The notes beneath the pieces were generated by a model. That model saw only the letters and a program-made list of their open reading frames with translations. It searched no databases and was not told the origin of the DNA. Positions 249 to 5,997 of a stretch of DNA of 6,055 nt are shown here, piece by piece. The stretch covers positions 1 to 6,055 of the forward strand of contig JAICVG010000078.1 in NCBI GenBank assembly GCA_025935445.1, in the 5' to 3' direction. The translations under genes and the position numbers were made by a program. This DNA comes from Nitrososphaera sp. (GTDB lineage Archaea; Thermoproteota; Nitrososphaeria; Nitrososphaerales; Nitrososphaeraceae). Numbering within the stretch: position 1 is the stretch's first letter; every line of letters begins with the position of its first letter.

Positions 249-329
249 GCTGAGGTCGTGGGTTCAAATCCCACCCGGTCCACTTTTATCAATCTGGAAA
301 AATACGGTATTGACTGAGCTTCTTTTGAT
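249..329 (+). repeat. tRNA-3'-end repeat, copy 1 (putative att site)
   Basis: The core (249-282) matches the 3' end of a tRNA gene: variable-loop AGGTC, T arm GTGGG-TTCAAAT-CCCAC, then acceptor strand CCGGTCC and discriminator A. No matching 5' half (a GGACCGG acceptor strand followed by D and anticodon arms) lies upstream, so this is a fragment and not a working tRNA gene. After the core come a T-rich trailer, a GGTATTG-like box and GAGCTT at 316-321, 34 bases past the core, as in the other copies. The distal GACAAA box of the other copies is not recognisable here, so this copy has the most diverged or shortest arm. The arm runs into the probable promoter region of the membrane-protein gene. 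Confidence 0.8.
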
Positions 330-384
330 TCGCTAAGGTTATAGGATTGTTCAGGCACTTCAGTTGTCATTGTTTCTCAAATGT

Positions 385-389
385 AGGAG
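385..389 (+). promoter_or_regulatory. Shine-Dalgarno site deciding a TTG start
   Basis: AGGAG lies 7 bases before the TTG at 397 and 16 bases before the next in-frame ATG at 406. An in-frame TAA occupies 394-396, so the frame cannot begin further upstream. The spacing favours TTG as the initiation codon. A weak TATA-like TTATAGG near 339-345 could be the promoter and would give a short leader containing this site. Confidence 0.55.
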
Positions 390-396
390 TGGCTAA

Positions 397-1149
397 TTGC
401 AGCACATGCAGACAAACGCAGCTGACCTTGAGCGTCATATGCTTCGGATGGGGTCAATAGCATTTCTTGCAGGTATGGCTATTTTCCTTGTATCCACAAT
501 CTTGCATCCTGGCAGAGAAGACCCAACAAACCATCCTATTGTGTTTGCAGAGTACGCTGAAGACGAGCTATGGATAGCCTCACACATAGGTCAATTTGCT
601 GGCGGAATGTTAGCTTTTGCTGGAGGATTTGTATCTCTCTTTTGGTTGTTGCATACACGGTCAGAATCAGGAATCGCATCAGCACTAGCATGGATGGGTC
701 TTGCAGCAACAATAGCTGCAGGAAGCACCTTAGCCGTTCTTCAGGCGGTTGATGGAATCGCGCTCAAAATGGCAGCGGATTCTTGGTATGCTGTTCCTGC
801 TGCTGATGGTGAAGAGAAAGCAATCGCCTTTAGTGTTGCAGAAGGGATTAGATGGATTGAGATTGCAGCCAATAGCTTGTTCCGAATTCTTCAAGGCTCA
901 GTTGGAGTAATCTTTGGTGTTACAATCCTAGCAAGCGGCATTCTCCATAGGTGGATTGGAGCCTTGGGAGTGTTTGCAGGTGTAGCTACTATTATTCTTG
1001 GTGTACGCGTAGCATATGTGGGCTTTGCGACTGTTGGTTCTATAGAGGACACTGTCTCGACTTGGACTTACTTAGCTTGGGTAGTAATCCTTGGCATTTT
1101 TATGTGGAGAAAAACTACGGCTAAGAAGATGACGACCACCACTAGATGA
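397..1149 (+). CDS. Six-helix integral membrane protein of unknown function
   Basis: This 250-residue protein has about six hydrophobic helices: residues 19-36, 62-85, 93-117, 160-182, 186-208 and 222-237. Between helices 1 and 2 is a 25-residue polar loop rich in acidic residues, with HPGREDPTNHP at 37-47. A second soluble loop (118-155) has an acidic patch, DGEE. The tail is basic (RKTTAKK), which suggests a cytoplasmic C-terminus by the positive-inside rule. The motif SHIGQFAGG at the start of helix 2 and the overall layout recall small DUF4386-like membrane proteins, but I cannot confirm that family. No catalytic or cofactor motif is visible. The start is the TTG supported by AGGAG at 385-389. 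It is the only gene between repeat copies 1 and 2 and the only convincing + strand gene in the window, so it appears to be transcribed alone. Confidence 0.88.
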   Translation: MQHMQTNAADLERHMLRMGSIAFLAGMAIFLVSTILHPGREDPTNHPIVFAEYAEDELWIASHIGQFAGGMLAFAGGFVSLFWLLHTRSESGIASALAWMGLAATIAAGSTLAVLQAVDGIALKMAADSWYAVPAADGEEKAIAFSVAEGIRWIEIAANSLFRILQGSVGVIFGVTILASGILHRWIGALGVFAGVATIILGVRVAYVGFATVGSIEDTVSTWTYLAWVVILGIFMWRKTTAKKMTTTTR

Positions 1150-1271
1150 GGTCTACTAGACGAACGTGGCTATGTAATCTCTAATGAGCTCTTCTATAAT
1201 ACACCTGCAAGCGCTGGCGTCACTTGATGGCATATCATACTAGTGGGTCAATTAAGAAAGCAAGCTCCTGA

Positions 1272-1368
1272 GCTGAGGTCGTGGGTTCAAATCCCACCCG
1301 GTCCATTTCTTACTGTGAGGGAATTATGGTATTGTTTTGAGCTTGTTCTAGGCGGTTGTCCGACAAAA
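1272..1368 (+). repeat. tRNA-3'-end repeat, copy 2 (putative att site)
   Basis: The 34-bp core (1272-1305) is identical to that of copy 1. It is followed by the T-rich trailer TTTCTT, a GGTATTG box, GAGCTT at 1339-1344 (again 34 bases past the core) and CGACAAAA near 1361-1368. Directly upstream, AGCTC-CT-GAGCT (1264-1275) forms a small palindrome, but a tRNA 5' half cannot be folded. The arm, though not the core, overlaps the 3' end of the convergent hydrolase gene, whose stop codon sits in the trailer at 1310-1312. Copy 2 shares the GAGCTGAGGTC entry sequence with copy 4. Confidence 0.85.
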
Positions 1369-2626
1369 CCCCTAGCGCGCCGTGAGTGCGATCTGAAAGC
1401 CATCTATACAAATCTGACAGGACATACTGTTCAATAGGTCCAAATTCTGTAAACCATTGCGATGAAGGATTGAATAGGTGTCCCAAGTCAGGATAAGTTA
1501 TCAGGGTATGGTCAGGGTGATTTACTTCAGTTAGTCTTTGCTCTAAAAGAAAAGCCTGTTGGACAGTACTTTGTGAATCATTTTCTCCGTTCATCATCAG
1601 AATGTCTGTAGATTCAGAGACATTGCCTATGACACTTAAATTCGGCTCTAATTCTTCGTGAGATTCAATCCACTTTGGGCATGTTCCAACAGAACATTTA
1701 GCTTCTGTATCTCCTGACGTGAAGTTTTCATAAATTTTTTCAAGTACGGGCTTCAGTTCGTTTTCAATGTCAACGTAACCATCACTATTATTGCCAAAGT
1801 ATGTGGCAACGGTGTGGTTAAGATTGGGGTGCTCAATTGGTTGTTGTACTGAAAAGGAGCCAGTATGATTTTTGTCCAGTACTTGATGTGCATATGCTAG
1901 AGTATTGTCTATCACCTGAAAGTGTGCTATATCATCAATTAGATTCTGAGCTCCTGTTCCCATCAGGACAATATTGGCTACCTTTGTCAAATTCCCAGTT
2001 GAGTTATTATTATTGTTGTTGTTATTATTTAGATCTATAACAACTCTTGGAATAATGACCGTTCCTTCACTGTGACCAATAAGGGTTATCTTATTTGGAT
2101 CAACCTCTGGTTGCTCTGTTAGGACGTTAAGCGCTTTTGCTGCATCATTCTTTAGATCATCAAATGTTAAGTTGCCCCATACATTCACATCCTGAATTGT
2201 ATTATTTGCACCTACTCCCCTCTTATCATATCGAAGTACCACAAATCCTCTCTCAGATAGATATTCAGCTATCTGAAAGAAGGGAGTTGGTGGATATATT
2301 TTTGAGCCTGTTTGATTGTCAATACGAATAAAGTCCACTGTTTCGTTCATATCTGTCGGTCCAGTGCCGTGTATAAGCAACACACCAGGAAATGGACCAT
2401 TTCCAACAGCTGGTATGGTTAGCTGGGCATTGGTTTGGATGCCGTTTCCTAAATCTATTACCAAGTCCCTACCTTTTACAGTTTGAATAAAAGGTTGAGC
2501 TAGAACACTTGTAGAATAGTTGTTGAAGGTAGTAGAATTAGATAGAAGAGACGAGGAAAACATGGCTATCACTAATAACAATCCTAAAGAGAATATAGAT
2601 GCCTTTGAATTTAGCTGACCTAACAT
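1310..2626 (-). CDS. Secreted alpha/beta hydrolase (serine hydrolase)
   Basis: This 438-residue protein starts with a signal peptide or N-terminal anchor (hydrophobic core 11-28, Ser-rich region, then VLAQ at 41-44). The alpha/beta-hydrolase elements follow in order: an oxyanion-loop HGTG at 86-89, LRYDKRGVG at 131-139, nucleophile elbow GHSEG with Ser186, a likely acid Asp350 in NGEND, and catalytic His383 in DLGH. This matches exported esterase/peptidase-like hydrolases; the substrate cannot be told. At least ten N-x-S/T sequons (for example NET at 94, NLT at 152, NHT at 253, NFT at 301) and Cys311/Cys316 fit a glycosylated extracytoplasmic enzyme. Asn200-208 is an uninterrupted nine-Asn run between the nucleophile strand and the next strand. 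The last ~23 residues are translated from the arm of repeat copy 2 and lie beyond the final fold helix (YVLSDLYRWLSDR), so they are probably an acquired tail. There is no Shine-Dalgarno before the ATG, so the mRNA is probably leaderless or short-leadered. Confidence 0.9.
   Translation of the reverse strand: MLGQLNSKASIFSLGLLLVIAMFSSSLLSNSTTFNNYSTSVLAQPFIQTVKGRDLVIDLGNGIQTNAQLTIPAVGNGPFPGVLLIHGTGPTDMNETVDFIRIDNQTGSKIYPPTPFFQIAEYLSERGFVVLRYDKRGVGANNTIQDVNVWGNLTFDDLKNDAAKALNVLTEQPEVDPNKITLIGHSEGTVIIPRVVIDLNNNNNNNNNSTGNLTKVANIVLMGTGAQNLIDDIAHFQVIDNTLAYAHQVLDKNHTGSFSVQQPIEHPNLNHTVATYFGNNSDGYVDIENELKPVLEKIYENFTSGDTEAKCSVGTCPKWIESHEELEPNLSVIGNVSESTDILMMNGENDSQSTVQQAFLLEQRLTEVNHPDHTLITYPDLGHLFNPSSQWFTEFGPIEQYVLSDLYRWLSDRTHGALGVLSDNRLEQAQNNTIIPSQ
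2003..2029 (-). repeat. Asn-codon microsatellite within the hydrolase gene
   Basis: Nine consecutive AAT/AAC codons (ATT/GTT triplets on the + strand) encode Asn200-208 of the hydrolase. Both codons occur in blocks, so the tract is a slightly degenerate trinucleotide repeat and not a pure one. It probably forms a flexible surface loop. It could expand or contract by slippage in units of three without breaking the reading frame. Confidence 0.8.
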
Positions 2627-2676
2627 AGCAAAGCAGAAGGATTGCAGGTGAAGTGGTTATAAGTTTTCAAGATGAT

Positions 2677-2685
2677 TATTTTAAA
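2677..2685 (-). promoter_or_regulatory. Candidate TATA box for the hydrolase gene
   Basis: On the - strand this reads TTTAAAATA, a good archaeal TATA-like element about 50 bp before the ATG, which would give a leader of roughly 25-30 bases. A second candidate, CTTATAAC at 2655-2662, lies about 30 bp before the ATG and would give a nearly leaderless message, which suits the absence of a Shine-Dalgarno site. The sequence alone does not decide between them. Confidence 0.3.
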
Positions 2686-2770
2686 GAATTAGAGGGTTTA
2701 AAATTATGATATTATCTTTACCACCATTAGATAGGAGGTAAAAAGAACAGCCTTGGAAAAGGGCTGAGCT

Positions 2771-2878
2771 GCTGAGGTCGTGGGTTCAACTCCCACCCGG
2801 TCCATTTCTTCCTGTTGTACAAATACGGCATTGAATTGAGCTTGATTTTGATATATATCGGACAAATTCAGCAGCAAT
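2771..2878 (+). repeat. tRNA-3'-end repeat, copy 3 (putative att site)
   Basis: The core (2771-2804) differs from copies 1 and 2 by one base in the T loop (TTCAACT instead of TTCAAAT); the stem and acceptor strand are intact. The TTTCTT trailer, GGCATTG box, GAGCTT at 2838-2843, GGACAAATT near 2860-2868 and a terminal AGCAGCAAT (2870-2878) follow. The last two elements are shared with copy 4 at the same spacing and define the right end of the repeat. The sequence just upstream can form CAGCC/GGCTG (stem 5, loop 9) but shows no tRNA 5' half. Confidence 0.85.
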
Positions 2879-2918
2879 CAGAAAAACGAGCAGCAACAGC
2901 GGCGGCTTTTAGTCAGTT

Positions 2919-2936
2919 AGTGTATATAGATACACT
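2919..2936. other. Perfect short inverted repeat downstream of the permease gene
   Basis: AGTGTAT-ATAG-ATACACT makes a 7-bp perfect stem with a 4-base loop, starting about 18 bases after the permease stop codon on the - strand. Its position fits a 3'-end hairpin or mRNA-stabilising structure. The - strand sequence beyond it is not U-rich, so a terminator role is weakly supported. It could instead be a protein-binding palindrome close to repeat copy 3. Confidence 0.3.
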
Positions 2937-2953
2937 CTAGACCGCGAAAGACT

Positions 2954-5386
2954 CTATTTGCCAACAAATCTCATAAGAGCAGTTTTAACTTTGTTCATAC
3001 CTGGGATTGTAAAGTCCCTCATGATTATGACTGGACAATTCAGACGCTCTACCAGTTGCACGTATTGCTGATTATCAAATATACTGAATTTTTTTATGCT
3101 GGCTCCTGTTACTACAATGTCTGGCTGCAATGCATTAATTGCCCCCAAAATAAGACGGGCGGACTGCTGTGCCTCCCTTTCACTTTCATGAGTTAGAATT
3201 ACCCTGTCAAACTCAAACCCTATATTGGAGAGAAATTCTTCTTTTTCTAACTCCTTTACAACAGACTTCTGCTCATCCTTATCATTATCATGATGGCTCT
3301 TTCCACGTCTTGGTCCAGTAGATAGGTAGTCTTCTTGCTTTAGAAATGTTTCTTTATCCGTTACGTACAAAACATTTACCTTGAATAGACCTGAATGTTC
3401 AAGCCAATTTGTGGTTTTCAATACTAGCTCAGAATGAGCTCCACCATCATAGACGACAACCAAGTTTTTTTTCATCATCTTCTTTTCAGCCTTATCATTA
3501 GTAGTAGCAGCCGAAATAGGAGGGGACAGAATAATATCTTCCATATCACTTCCAGCCGTATCGATTGCCATTATATCACAAGTAACTAAGGTCTGAAGCT
3601 TCTTGTTATTTCTGAGCGTTTCAAAGTCTGTCACAAGAAGGTCGATCCTTTGTTCTTCAATTGTGGCAAGAACTGCTTCTGTTGCATCATGTGAAACCCT
3701 GACAAAGTAGTGATTTAGTACACCTTCTTTATCTAGAATTTGGTCCAGTGATGTGAAGGCTCTCCTTGCACTCTCTACAAAAGCTGCTCCAGCTGAAAGT
3801 GGAGTTTGCTGGGGAACAGTGATTACTCTTAGAACACTGATTTCTCCGTCATTTTCTTTTGCAACTCTTATCGCATATTTGAGGAGCCTATCAGGATTTT
3901 CAGGTGTGTATGGCATCAAGATCCTAAAATCTTTTCGTGCTAGATCACCTTCTGATGTTATGACAGGTGCATAGTGATCTACTTCTTGCTTGAAGGTATA
4001 CATTCTATATAGGATAAAGCCAACTAAAACCCATAATGCAGCAATGCCCCAACTAAGCGGTTGGGTGACAAGCAAGTAAAACGCAAGACCTATTTTCAAG
4101 AATATCCCTATGATGGGAATTGCAGGAAATAGAGGTGTCTTAAATCCGTAGTCAAGTCTGTTGCCATGCATCTTTCGTATTGTAATTACGGCTATGTTTA
4201 CTTGGATGAACAGCAGCAAAAAGATAACGCCGGCTGCAACTGCTATCTGTTCAAGGGGAAGTGCGTAAGCCATTACAGCCATGATAACACCTGATATTGC
4301 TATGGCAACATGTGGTGTCTTGTTCTTGTGGTGAATTGAGCTCAATATATGCGGCAAGTTGTAATGTCTACCCATTGCAAACGCGACTCTAGCCGAAGAA
4401 AAAGTGGTAGCATTGAGTCCTGCCAGACTAGAAACTATGCCTCCTGCAAGGACTATAAAAGCACCAAATGGAAGAAGCAATTCTGCAGCCCTCATAACTC
4501 CAAGCTCTTGGTTTTCTCCTACAAACTGCCAGGCTGGTATACCCTCGGGAAATATTCCTCCTATGGAAACAAATGCTACAAGACAGTAGAGGGAAACGAC
4601 AAGTCCAAGGGATATGAAAATCGCTCTTGGTATGTTTTTCTTTGGGTTCTTTACTTCCTCACCTGTTTGAACTATCACTTCATATCCTTCAAATGCAATA
4701 AAGGTGAGACCCATTGCAGCCACAAGTCCAGCAACACCATTTGGTATAAAGTCAGCGAAGTTACTGGGCCAATTAGGATGAAGGTGCATGCTCCAAAAGC
4801 CAGCAACTATTAATGCACCAATAGTTCCAAGCTGGATGAAAGTTGCGATGTTGCCAGTTTTTCCAGTTTCTGAAGTGCCTTTAATGTTGATATAAGTAAA
4901 CGCTGCAACGCATGCCACAGCCATTAATTTTTCAATTGGAACTACGCCGAAAAGTGGCTCAGTAACAACAAGACCGAGAGATTCAAGCAAGCTGCCCAAG
5001 AATGAAGCAAATCCAACCGCATAAAGGCTCCCAGCAATAGAGTGAGCAAGCCAAGCCATCCAGCCGCTGATAAATGCATTAGGTCGAGGCAATCCTTCTC
5101 TGACCCAGAGATATCCGCCACCAGCTTCTGGCATTGCAGAGCCTAATTCTGCATATCCCATGGCGGTAAAGAGCGTAATTACTCCATTGATGATGAAAGC
5201 AATGAGAACTGCACCGCCTGCTAAGTTTATTGCAGGACCAATGAGAATAAAGATGGCTCCAGCTATCATAGCTGCGATCCCCACCATGACGATATCTAAT
5301 AGCCCAAGCGAGCGCACCAGTTGATGCTGATGAGGATGTTCAGGAGAACTTGGAGATGTTATATCTGATGGCGGTGCCAAAGGCAA
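2954..5386 (-). CDS. APC-family amino acid/amine permease with two C-terminal UspA-like domains
   Basis: This 810-residue protein is an APC-superfamily transporter (about residues 25-465, twelve helices) joined to a cytoplasmic tail with two universal-stress-protein folds (about 485-610 and 640-790) and a polar linker between them. Permease landmarks are AGAIF at 42-46 in unwound helix 1, AGGGYLWVREGLP at 88-100 and FEGYEV...EEVKNPKKNIPRAI at 232-256. These are typical of amino acid or polyamine uptake across the cytoplasmic membrane, driven by ions; the substrate is unknown. Both Usp domains lack a clean G-x2-G-x9-G(S/T) ATP loop (the second has TGASIKKFSIF at 760-770), so they may sense something else or only mediate dimerisation. 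The linker and the 685-715 loop are rich in charge and His. A TAG lies just upstream in frame and no ATG occurs before Met34 in helix 1, so the start is TTG: 5386, or more likely 5380, which AGGAG precedes by 6 bases. It is the only gene between copies 3 and 4. Confidence 0.92.
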   Translation of the reverse strand: MPLAPPSDITSPSSPEHPHQHQLVRSLGLLDIVMVGIAAMIAGAIFILIGPAINLAGGAVLIAFIINGVITLFTAMGYAELGSAMPEAGGGYLWVREGLPRPNAFISGWMAWLAHSIAGSLYAVGFASFLGSLLESLGLVVTEPLFGVVPIEKLMAVACVAAFTYINIKGTSETGKTGNIATFIQLGTIGALIVAGFWSMHLHPNWPSNFADFIPNGVAGLVAAMGLTFIAFEGYEVIVQTGEEVKNPKKNIPRAIFISLGLVVSLYCLVAFVSIGGIFPEGIPAWQFVGENQELGVMRAAELLLPFGAFIVLAGGIVSSLAGLNATTFSSARVAFAMGRHYNLPHILSSIHHKNKTPHVAIAISGVIMAVMAYALPLEQIAVAAGVIFLLLFIQVNIAVITIRKMHGNRLDYGFKTPLFPAIPIIGIFLKIGLAFYLLVTQPLSWGIAALWVLVGFILYRMYTFKQEVDHYAPVITSEGDLARKDFRILMPYTPENPDRLLKYAIRVAKENDGEISVLRVITVPQQTPLSAGAAFVESARRAFTSLDQILDKEGVLNHYFVRVSHDATEAVLATIEEQRIDLLVTDFETLRNNKKLQTLVTCDIMAIDTAGSDMEDIILSPPISAATTNDKAEKKMMKKNLVVVYDGGAHSELVLKTTNWLEHSGLFKVNVLYVTDKETFLKQEDYLSTGPRRGKSHHDNDKDEQKSVVKELEKEEFLSNIGFEFDRVILTHESEREAQQSARLILGAINALQPDIVVTGASIKKFSIFDNQQYVQLVERLNCPVIIMRDFTIPGMNKVKTALMRFVGK

Positions 5387-5391
5387 CTCCT
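5387..5391 (-). promoter_or_regulatory. Shine-Dalgarno site bearing on the permease start
   Basis: On the - strand AGGAG directly abuts the TTG at 5386-5384, which is too close, and lies 6 bases before the second in-frame TTG at 5380-5378. The spacing argues that translation starts two codons later than the longest frame, giving 808 residues. Confidence 0.5.
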
Positions 5392-5417
5392 AGAATAGTC
5401 TAGCTGTGTTTGACGTT

Positions 5418-5432
5418 ACTTATGAATATTTG
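5418..5432 (-). promoter_or_regulatory. Candidate TATA box for the permease gene
   Basis: The - strand reads CAAATATTCATAAGT, an AT-rich TATA-like element centred about 40 bp before the TTG start. A transcript beginning about 25 bp downstream would have a leader of roughly 15-20 bases containing the AGGAG site, which is consistent. The match to a consensus is only moderate. Confidence 0.3.
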
Positions 5433-5850
5433 ATTTTCTTTTGAATTTTCTGGGTTCATTATAGATAATATTGATGTAGCATGATGAGCAGACATCCTTT
5501 ACTTTATCCACCCTTGGACGAAAGTCACTCATAAATCTTTTTCTCTACGCGCTATATTTAAGCTGTTTATAAATCCAGATATAATCGCTTGTCCAACTAC
5601 CGCCGTGCGGCTTCTACTGTGTCGTCGATCAATAGGTGGCAGTCTTTATGTTTTTTGATATCTCTATTGATTCGATGCGTCATCTCTGTCTCACATAATA
5701 CCATTTTGCATGTCTTCTAAAACAAATAAACATTTGATAAATGCTTACAGAGAGAACTATGTAATCAGAAACCTATGCTAAGTCCAAAAAGTTCAAAATA
5801 ACTTGGTATAAATGGAAATAGTATAGACAAAAGATGACTCCAGTTGTTGA
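5433..5850. other. Long spacer upstream of the permease gene
   Basis: No credible protein-coding frame is seen on either strand over roughly 420 bases. The stretch holds strong TATA-like boxes (TATATTTAA near 5553, TTTATAAAT at 5566-5574, TATAAATGG at 5807-5815), a GC-rich structured island at 5596-5643 followed by a T tract, and a small palindrome CATTT-GAT-AAATG at 5731-5743. The last TATA-like box lies about 40 bp before repeat copy 4. The region is unusually long compared with the other spacers here. Confidence 0.5.
5596..5656 (+). ncRNA. Candidate small structured RNA with U-tract end
   Basis: ACTACCGCC (5596-5604) pairs with GGTGGCAGT (5635-5643) over eight of nine positions, one of them a G-U wobble. 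A T-rich stretch ending in six Ts (5651-5656) follows at once. An alternative tight hairpin, CCGC-CGT-GCGG (5600-5610), uses part of the same 5' strand, so the two folds exclude each other. A strong TATA-like TTTATAAAT at 5566-5574 sits about 25 bp before the structured part. TATA box, GC-rich hairpin and U tract in this order fit a short + strand transcript of about 60 bases. No known RNA family is recognised, and there is no expression evidence. Confidence 0.27.
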
Positions 5851-5959
5851 GCTGAGGTCGTGGGTTCAAATCCCACCCAGTCCATTTCTCTTGTTCTGGT
5901 AAACTACAGTATTGTTTTGAGCTTGTTTTGTTTAACTGTAGGACAAATTTAGCAGCAAT
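5851..5959 (+). repeat. tRNA-3'-end repeat, copy 4 (putative att site)
   Basis: The core (5851-5884) differs by one base in the acceptor strand (CCAGTCC for CCGGTCC); the T arm is intact. The trailer TTTCTC, CAGTATTG box, GAGCTT at 5919-5924, GGACAAATT at 5941-5949 and terminal AGCAGCAAT at 5951-5959 align with copy 3. The two arms are about 60% identical by hand alignment, against one or two changes in the core. There is no tRNA 5' half upstream. A new interval begins beyond it and continues past the window. Confidence 0.85.
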
Positions 5960-5997
5960 GCTTTGGATAAATCATATACAAAGGAGTCTTTGATGAC

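Follow-up and report, generated by a model that had tools for sequence, protein, structure and literature searches.

We analysed a stretch of 6,055 nt, hereafter the window, which is the whole of contig C2 in the assembly of a Nitrososphaera sp. genome (G000, the source genome; 1.65 Mb in 334 contigs, 75% complete). A repeat search of the window revealed the four same-direction tRNA 3'-end repeats that had been described in the initial annotation, at the positions listed in Table 1 and with spacings of 1023, 1499 and 3080 bp. Two copies of the 34-nt core are identical and the other two have one mismatch each. Past the core, about 75 nt are also conserved, more weakly in copy 1, and we named this segment arm A. 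The repeat is longer than first noted, consisting of the 34-nt 3' half of tRNA-Ala(GGC) plus arm A of ~75 nt, and every unit of the window starts with this same site, the arm of site 1 being decayed at its outer end. ARAGORN detected no tRNA in the window. Each of the three intervals contains one long open reading frame (250, 438 and 810 aa), and none of the three genes has a Pfam match to a recombinase, in agreement with the earlier view that these units carry cargo and no recombinase of their own.

Table 1. Sites and cargo genes of the window (positions counted from its first nucleotide).
Feature	Position	Strand	Basis
Site 1 core, 3' half of tRNA-Ala(GGC)	249..282	+	repeat and pattern search
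Site 1 arm A, outer end decayed	283..335	+	arm A profile, positions to 86; E 1.2e-4
Unit 1 cargo, 250-aa protein, no Pfam match; TTG start, ATG at 406	397..1149	+	
Site 2 core	1272..1305	+	repeat and pattern search
Site 2 arm A; reverse reading codes for the last ~20 residues of gene 2	1306..1377	+	profile
Unit 2 cargo, 438-aa alpha/beta hydrolase; arm A codons replace the usual C-terminus	1310..2626	-	
Spacer box CATTAGATAGGAGG, upstream of site 3	2725..2738	+	box search
Site 3 core	2771..2804	+	repeat and pattern search
Site 3 arm A	2805..2880	+	arm A profile
Unit 3 cargo, 810-aa amino-acid permease with universal-stress-protein domains	2954..5386	-	Pfam
Site 4 core	5851..5884	+	repeat and pattern search
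Site 4 arm A	5885..5963	+	arm A profile

The reading of the end of gene 2 from arm A is not peculiar to the window. Among the best 120 of 3331 gene 2 homologues, seven (68-97% protein identity) switch to the arm A tail at an identical residue; endings such as GLRGLDGG are seen in others. Given this residue and this range of identities, the joint between arm A and gene 2 is evidently old and no artefact of this assembly.

A whole-genome search for the repeat, as envisaged at the outset, was productive. Using a 131-bp repeat query, blastn returned 23 matches in G000 (E ≤ 0.001), among which were a tRNA-Pro gene on contig C276 and several core fragments, including those on C263 and C296. The core pattern matched 11 times with three mismatches or fewer, and the reversed pattern did not match at all. 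We then used a sequence model of arm A, built from 25 copies, with a cut-off of E ≤ 0.01. It matched eight of 70 genomes of the family: 16 times in G000, 14 times in G002, which is a second species of the genus (84% complete; one match, on C117, is half-length), once in G009, of the same genus, once in G086, of another genus, and once, weakly, in each of four further genomes (E 7e-4 to 0.006). The matches in G000 and G002 are spread over many short contigs. No match was obtained at E ≤ 1e-4 in 397 other genomes drawn from the phylum, with filters that lose weak matches and with G002 evidently outside the draw. In public metagenome contigs, 40 predicted reading frames match the translation across arm A and core, and all ten that were inspected hold both parts; two exact patterns gave no match in viral contigs. 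The arm A copies of G000 and G002 have a mean column identity of 68%, and many cores and arms show decay, yet numerous copies have kept an almost exact core. A tree of 24 arm A copies, with few firm branches, mixes the two genomes (8 label changes, against a mean of 8.3 after shuffling). Because the copies of the two species are intermixed, the sites are likely to be old or to have been exchanged.

Where two sites are adjacent on one contig they face the same direction, in 17 of 17 pairs overall and in 13 of 13 when only strong copies are counted, which supports the tandem, same-direction units first described. For the 17 pairs, site directions were assigned by hand; the weak copies L023 3119, L064 2738, L065 2625, and L027 3927 and 4557 were kept, and inverted partners (L064 4247+, L065 2676+ and 667+, L063 3211+), fragments (L020 3544- and 2191-, L062 132- and 1234-) and all single-site contigs were left out. 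The 17 intervals measure 546 to 3080 bp (0.55-3.1 kb), with a median of 1269 bp. The rule of one gene per interval applies throughout the window, and elsewhere it has exceptions: most intervals hold one gene, some two and one L064 interval four, and two short L023 intervals hold little. The cargo lies either way round. Its families in the rows include SnoaL-like proteins, a cupin, histidine kinases, a cupredoxin, a ferritin-like protein, an inositol phosphatase and a methyltransferase. Contigs C68, C182, C193, C196 and C266 each carry a lone site among several genes, which we count against accretion, and for this reason row membership is not established for every site. Because the assemblies are fragmented, we infer, rather than observe directly, that the sites form one row.

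The initial annotation offered serial accretion at one tRNA locus as one of two readings and proposed a search for the intact parent gene, whose acceptor 5' strand was predicted to be GGACCGG. The locus proved to be tRNA-Ala(GGC), with the acceptor strand GGGCCGG instead. An intact copy, directly followed by arm A, is present in G002 (L060), on a contig that ends 381 bp past the site, and no intact tRNA-Ala was among the core matches in the G000 assembly. The near 5' flank of L060 resembles that of a relative. A 537-aa gene located farther upstream is shared with eight other loci of the genus, and between this gene and the tRNA are two genes found in none of the nine other loci.

In six of the seven relatives' loci inspected, a member of one gene family, which we take to be chorismate-lyase-like, comes after the tRNA; it is the gene that stands by the tRNA in G015 and G016. 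In G000 and G002 it is located away from the sites' tRNA, on different contigs, and its end adjoins the decayed remnant of a tRNA, which was recognised by eye in a stretch chosen after it had been seen. The repeat profile matched the remnant with an E of 0.05 in G002 and gave nothing in G000. The score of its alignment to tRNA-Ala was reached by seven of 2000 dinucleotide shuffles for G000 and by one of 2000 for G002. Both tRNA halves contribute in G000 (5' half, 17 of 2000 shuffles) and only the 3' half in G002 (5' half, 1801 of 2000). The 5' half of the G000 remnant counts against accretion, because a simple insertion would not lead one to expect a 5' half at that place. The remnant contigs of the two genomes are 91% identical over 6.6 kb. 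Since the following gene and the remnant lie on other contigs that are so similar, it was probably in the common ancestor of both species that the tRNA locus was opened.

A filled and an empty site can be compared in two other genomes. In G008 (UBA217, L048/L055), an intact tRNA is followed 299 bp on by a second core with three mismatches, and the flank after this second core is the one that comes directly after the tRNA in G016 (L038), where the site is empty. The 265 bp between the G008 cores contain two GTCSGACAAA words and one TACGGCAATT word, which are arm A-like. Three such words were found in none of 20,000 dinucleotide shuffles, the words having been chosen after the unit had been seen, and the arm A model gave no match in G008 at E ≤ 0.01. 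The two loci offer the clearest indication of precise insertion at a core. The distance from the tRNA to the following gene is ~1.5 kb in G014 and ~0.6 kb in G010, without a second core. Precise gain at a core between relatives, for which the initial annotation proposed to look, was found for this one unit and not for the rows of G000 and G002: apart from the single-unit case of G008, no genome pair shows presence and absence of one unit in an otherwise unchanged order.

About a dozen copies of the site have an inverted partial tRNA end 40-90 nt upstream, recognised by eye and by alignment. Several of these inverted ends have their own outer arm B, and the spacer contains a TTTAGATAGGAGG-like box. 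A full copy, with the layout arm B' - inverted tRNA end - spacer - tRNA end - arm A, is almost symmetric, and the outer ends of this 110-260 bp element are undefined. The TATA-like spacer box, which was chosen from these same sites after seeing them, occurs within three mismatches at 10 of 35 sites, compared with 0.4% of shuffled stretches. In the window it is present at site 3 only, and none of the four sites has a clear inverted partner; this absence, and the varying upstream ends of the sites, count against accretion.

At L064, the spacer is reversed between the core and its inverted partner. Compared with 15 other spacers, its reverse complement scored a mean of 22.4 (maximum 44), and the spacer as read a mean of 14.5 (maximum 19), with a shuffled mean of 12.6. 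This inversion points to exchange within the 21 nt that the two ends share. A second candidate inversion, at L065, was weak (mean 15.3 versus 12.6; shuffled maximum 15.7) and was not retained.

The near-symmetry of the full copies raises the question of whether the repeat could be MITE-like and tRNA-derived, 110-260 bp long and able to insert on its own between genes, frequently at their 3' ends, with the genes as ordinary neighbours. Such an element could also occur as the single copies seen in G009 and G086, and could meet or replace the C-termini of genes, as is observed. A two-gene segment common to G000 and G009 is of the same tenor: it has the element on one side only, in opposite directions in the two genomes, and no detectable site at the other end, so that it fits the unit model only in part. 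Scattered insertion either way round, however, is not what the multi-site contigs display, since all 17 adjacent pairs have one direction, and the strong copies of G000 (n=17) lie on 10 of the 334 contigs. Moreover, one G002 copy is the intact tRNA gene itself, the G008 unit is bounded by cores at the tRNA, and genes 1 and 2 are missing from most relatives, not merely separated. We therefore regard a self-inserting element as improbable.

An attC-like hairpin was looked for by permuted pairing and by DNA folding, and no signal was obtained over the set. The folding z over 30 copies as DNA averaged -0.03 for the whole site and 0.18 for arm A, the closing stem paired in cis no better than when permuted, no covariation signal was obtained, and the alignment fold energy was only -2.8. 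Three longer stretches, two of which hold inverted tRNA ends, gave DNA folding z values of -1.39, -2.04 and -1.57. An inner stem was weak (z -1.75; 88 of 2000 permutations) and is not claimed. By eye, some individual copies pair well (L067, L023).

These results also bear on whether selection maintains the repeat between transcripts, as an RNA gene or as a signal for processing that includes a tRNA T-arm. Conservation of arm A over an old divergence and the TATA-like box in some of the spacers would be in keeping with that, but core plus arm A lack a conserved fold, and the search of the 397 other genomes of the phylum, under the stricter filters, gave no arm A. The spacer inversion and the patchy cargo would be left unexplained as well, and we consider a selected RNA very unlikely.

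The only PF00589 match in G000 is encoded on contig C190, beside two decayed cores, and its frame is split in two ORFs; G002 has no PF00589 match. The C190 recombinase scores 61.8 bits against archaeal XerA (cut-off 220) and 26.8 bits against integron integrase (cut-off 265), and no IntI was found in G000 or G002, at their 75% and 84% completeness. Of the 70 genomes of the family, 35 have relatives of the C190 enzyme, and the highest number in a single genome is 26 matches, fragments counted. A core profile scan around 15 fetched relatives detected no core within ~1.5 kb, and it did detect both C190 cores; a motif scan for cores by the relatives also gave none, and that scan missed the decayed C190 cores. 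No recombinase is linked to the sites, which counts against accretion.

The proposed kinship with integrons was not supported by these scores and the folding results. A true integron array without integrase (CALIN), whose attC sites happen to contain a tRNA end, would consist of mostly single-gene, cassette-size units in a row, as found here, and both integrons and CALINs are reported from Archaea (PMC9668308). The three longer stretches also fold somewhat better than their shuffles. Nevertheless, the set as a whole has no hairpin signal, the site is conserved in sequence along 110 nt, the cargo lies both ways round, and the one recombinase present falls far below the IntI cut-off; we give this explanation next to no credence.

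The cargo of the window differs between relatives. Gene 1 is present in two of 31 genomes searched (G000, and G015 at 35%), and gene 2 in seven of 41 (G000, G015, G007 with a weak match and, in four other genera, one genome apiece). Neither was among the matches in G002 (assembly 84% complete), which accords with the earlier view that the units are not a fixed gene set. The gene 3 family is common (34 of 41 genomes); the window copy is one of two in G000, and its nearest relative is in G007 (76%), the best in G002 reaching 64%. For contrast, chromosome DNA of G000 and G002 is 91% identical over 6.6 kb. Within the DNA around each of 22 loci with gene 3 relatives, gene 1 or gene 2 was never found beside them. 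Among the contigs examined, the clearest cargo common to G000 and G002 is a zinc-ribbon gene at 79%. The notion that the cargo of the rows consists of accessory genes is supported by these data.

The age of the sites invites the explanation that the units were inserted long ago and are now subject only to homologous recombination and decay, with no recombinase active today. The 68% mean column identity of the arm A copies of both genomes agrees with this, as do the decay of many cores and arms, the split frame of the only nearby integrase (C190) and the old joint between gene 2 and arm A. On the other hand, the cargo differs between two close species and the core is nearly exact in many copies. 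A shared core of 21 nt offers little length for homologous recombination; the L064 spacer is nevertheless inverted between two such cores. In our judgement, a wholly fossil row is unlikely.

Our preferred interpretation, to which we assign a probability of about 0.57, is that the window belongs to a row of small gene-carrying units that were serially accreted at the 3' half of tRNA-Ala(GGC) by a site-specific recombinase. Accretion is supported by the uniform direction of the 17 adjacent pairs, by the intact tRNA with arm A in G002, by the usual following gene beside a tRNA remnant in G000 and G002, by the G008 unit and by the L064 inversion. It is further supported by the number of arm A matches in the two genomes (16 and 14) and their intermixing in the tree, and by the patchy cargo, which differs between G000 and G002 and in which genes 1 and 2 accompany gene 3 at none of the 22 loci. 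In such a process, strand exchange would take place within the stretch that the core has in common with the inverted copy (GTTCAAATCCCACCCGGTCCA). A circle made up of core, arm A, gene and end would, on insertion, restore the tRNA 3' end, and the previous 3' end would then lie one unit further on. Since the window units carry no recombinase, the enzyme would be supplied in trans, either by another locus of the cell or by a visiting element. If inverted core copies can also recombine, units either way round would follow.

A bolder version, which we put forward tentatively and regard as possible rather than probable, is that of an integron-independent archaeal cassette platform. The tRNA-Ala 3' half plus arm A would then be a universal double-stranded attachment site, where circles with a single gene would be captured and exchanged in trans, and the short promoter-like segment between the two inverted tRNA ends would be able to flip. 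If so, this segment could face one or the other neighbouring cassette.

Several features expected of tandem accretion were found: direct repeats of an RNA-gene 3' end bound the units, an intact copy of the gene stands at the start (G002), and a filled and an empty site differ exactly at the repeat (the single 299-bp unit, G008 versus G016). Prochlorococcus tycheposons are tRNA-anchored accretions of cargo and include small satellites. Archaeal elements integrated at tRNA genes exceed the present units in size and usually encode an integrase, whereas the units described here hold one or a few cargo genes. Archaeal integrated elements with tyrosine recombinases target tRNA genes, often at the 3' end; more than half of the attB sites of thaumarchaeal elements are in tRNA genes, and arrays formed by reuse of one site are known (PMC8371274, PMC6563490). 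The nearest precedent is that of the tandem ssrA islands of Dehalococcoides (PMC3146451), which include integrase-less and perhaps cis-mobilizable members: 15 islands lack an integration module and were proposed to depend on their neighbours, 16 have a serine recombinase, and the repeats are of 20 bp. In both systems, tandem units lie downstream of one RNA gene and each is bounded by direct repeats of its 3' end. The rows described here, by contrast, involve an archaeal tRNA and a site of ~110 nt; their units mostly hold a single gene, the arm A matches number 14-16 per genome, and no recombinase has been tied to the sites. Archaeal integrons are recognised by IntI plus attC, and, as in integrons and CALINs, small cassettes form rows, each with its own recombination site, and the integrase may be missing (PMC9668308). 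The attC is a folded single-strand site, whereas the site here is conserved in sequence and without fold signal over the set, and, unlike integrons, the rows are anchored at a tRNA and have cargo facing both ways. Among the titles and abstract openings listed in our literature searches, none names rows of genes at tRNA ends in archaea. The rows differ from the known kinds in their long conserved site, their mostly single-gene units and the number of sites.

Rows of units that mostly hold a single gene, standing behind one tRNA and with cargo that differs between two close species, would constitute a store of cassettes in the Nitrososphaeraceae that uses no integron parts. Accretion by a recombinase acting at a tRNA site would give archaea a means of gene collection without a classical integron, and would illustrate how small passive units can become (in G008, 265 bp separate the cores) when the recombinase acts in trans. 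The combination of core and arm A provides a marker by which the system can be followed in metagenomes.

Codons of arm A, the approximately 75 conserved nt that follow the core (the 34-nt 3' half of tRNA-Ala(GGC)), form the C-terminal tail of gene 2, the 438-aa alpha/beta hydrolase of the window, and 7 of the best 120 gene 2 homologues carry a tail of this type. The arm A element has added protein sequence to gene 2. In G002, a second species of the genus, a reading frame has a site (core plus arm A) within it or at its end; this frame aligns to a frame of L020 at 79% over 29 aa.

Coordinates of the features
Locus	Coordinates	Feature
Window	1310-1369	arm A codons, gene 2 tail
L061 (G002)	3149-3565	site within or at the end of a reading frame
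L064 (G002)	2957-3138	182-bp stretch
L065 (G002)	3686-3867	182-bp stretch, at the contig end

The two G002 copies of the 182-bp stretch, on different contigs, are 98% identical and perhaps mark a break of the assembly within a row of sites. In G000 and G002 alike, a 529-533-aa protein adjoins the tRNA-Ala remnant, past the decayed tRNA (L153, L152).

The family of the tyrosine recombinase of G000 contig C190 has numerous matches in each of several genomes from other Nitrososphaeraceae genera (G074, G019, G026, G076, G091 and G092), with up to 26 in one genome, fragments counted. Some of these matches are broken.

In the third lineage, G008 (L048/L055), the 265 bp separating tRNA-Ala from the second core contain two TTGTCCGACAAA-like near-palindromes and at most 78 codons without a stop; this stretch may be a minimal unit.
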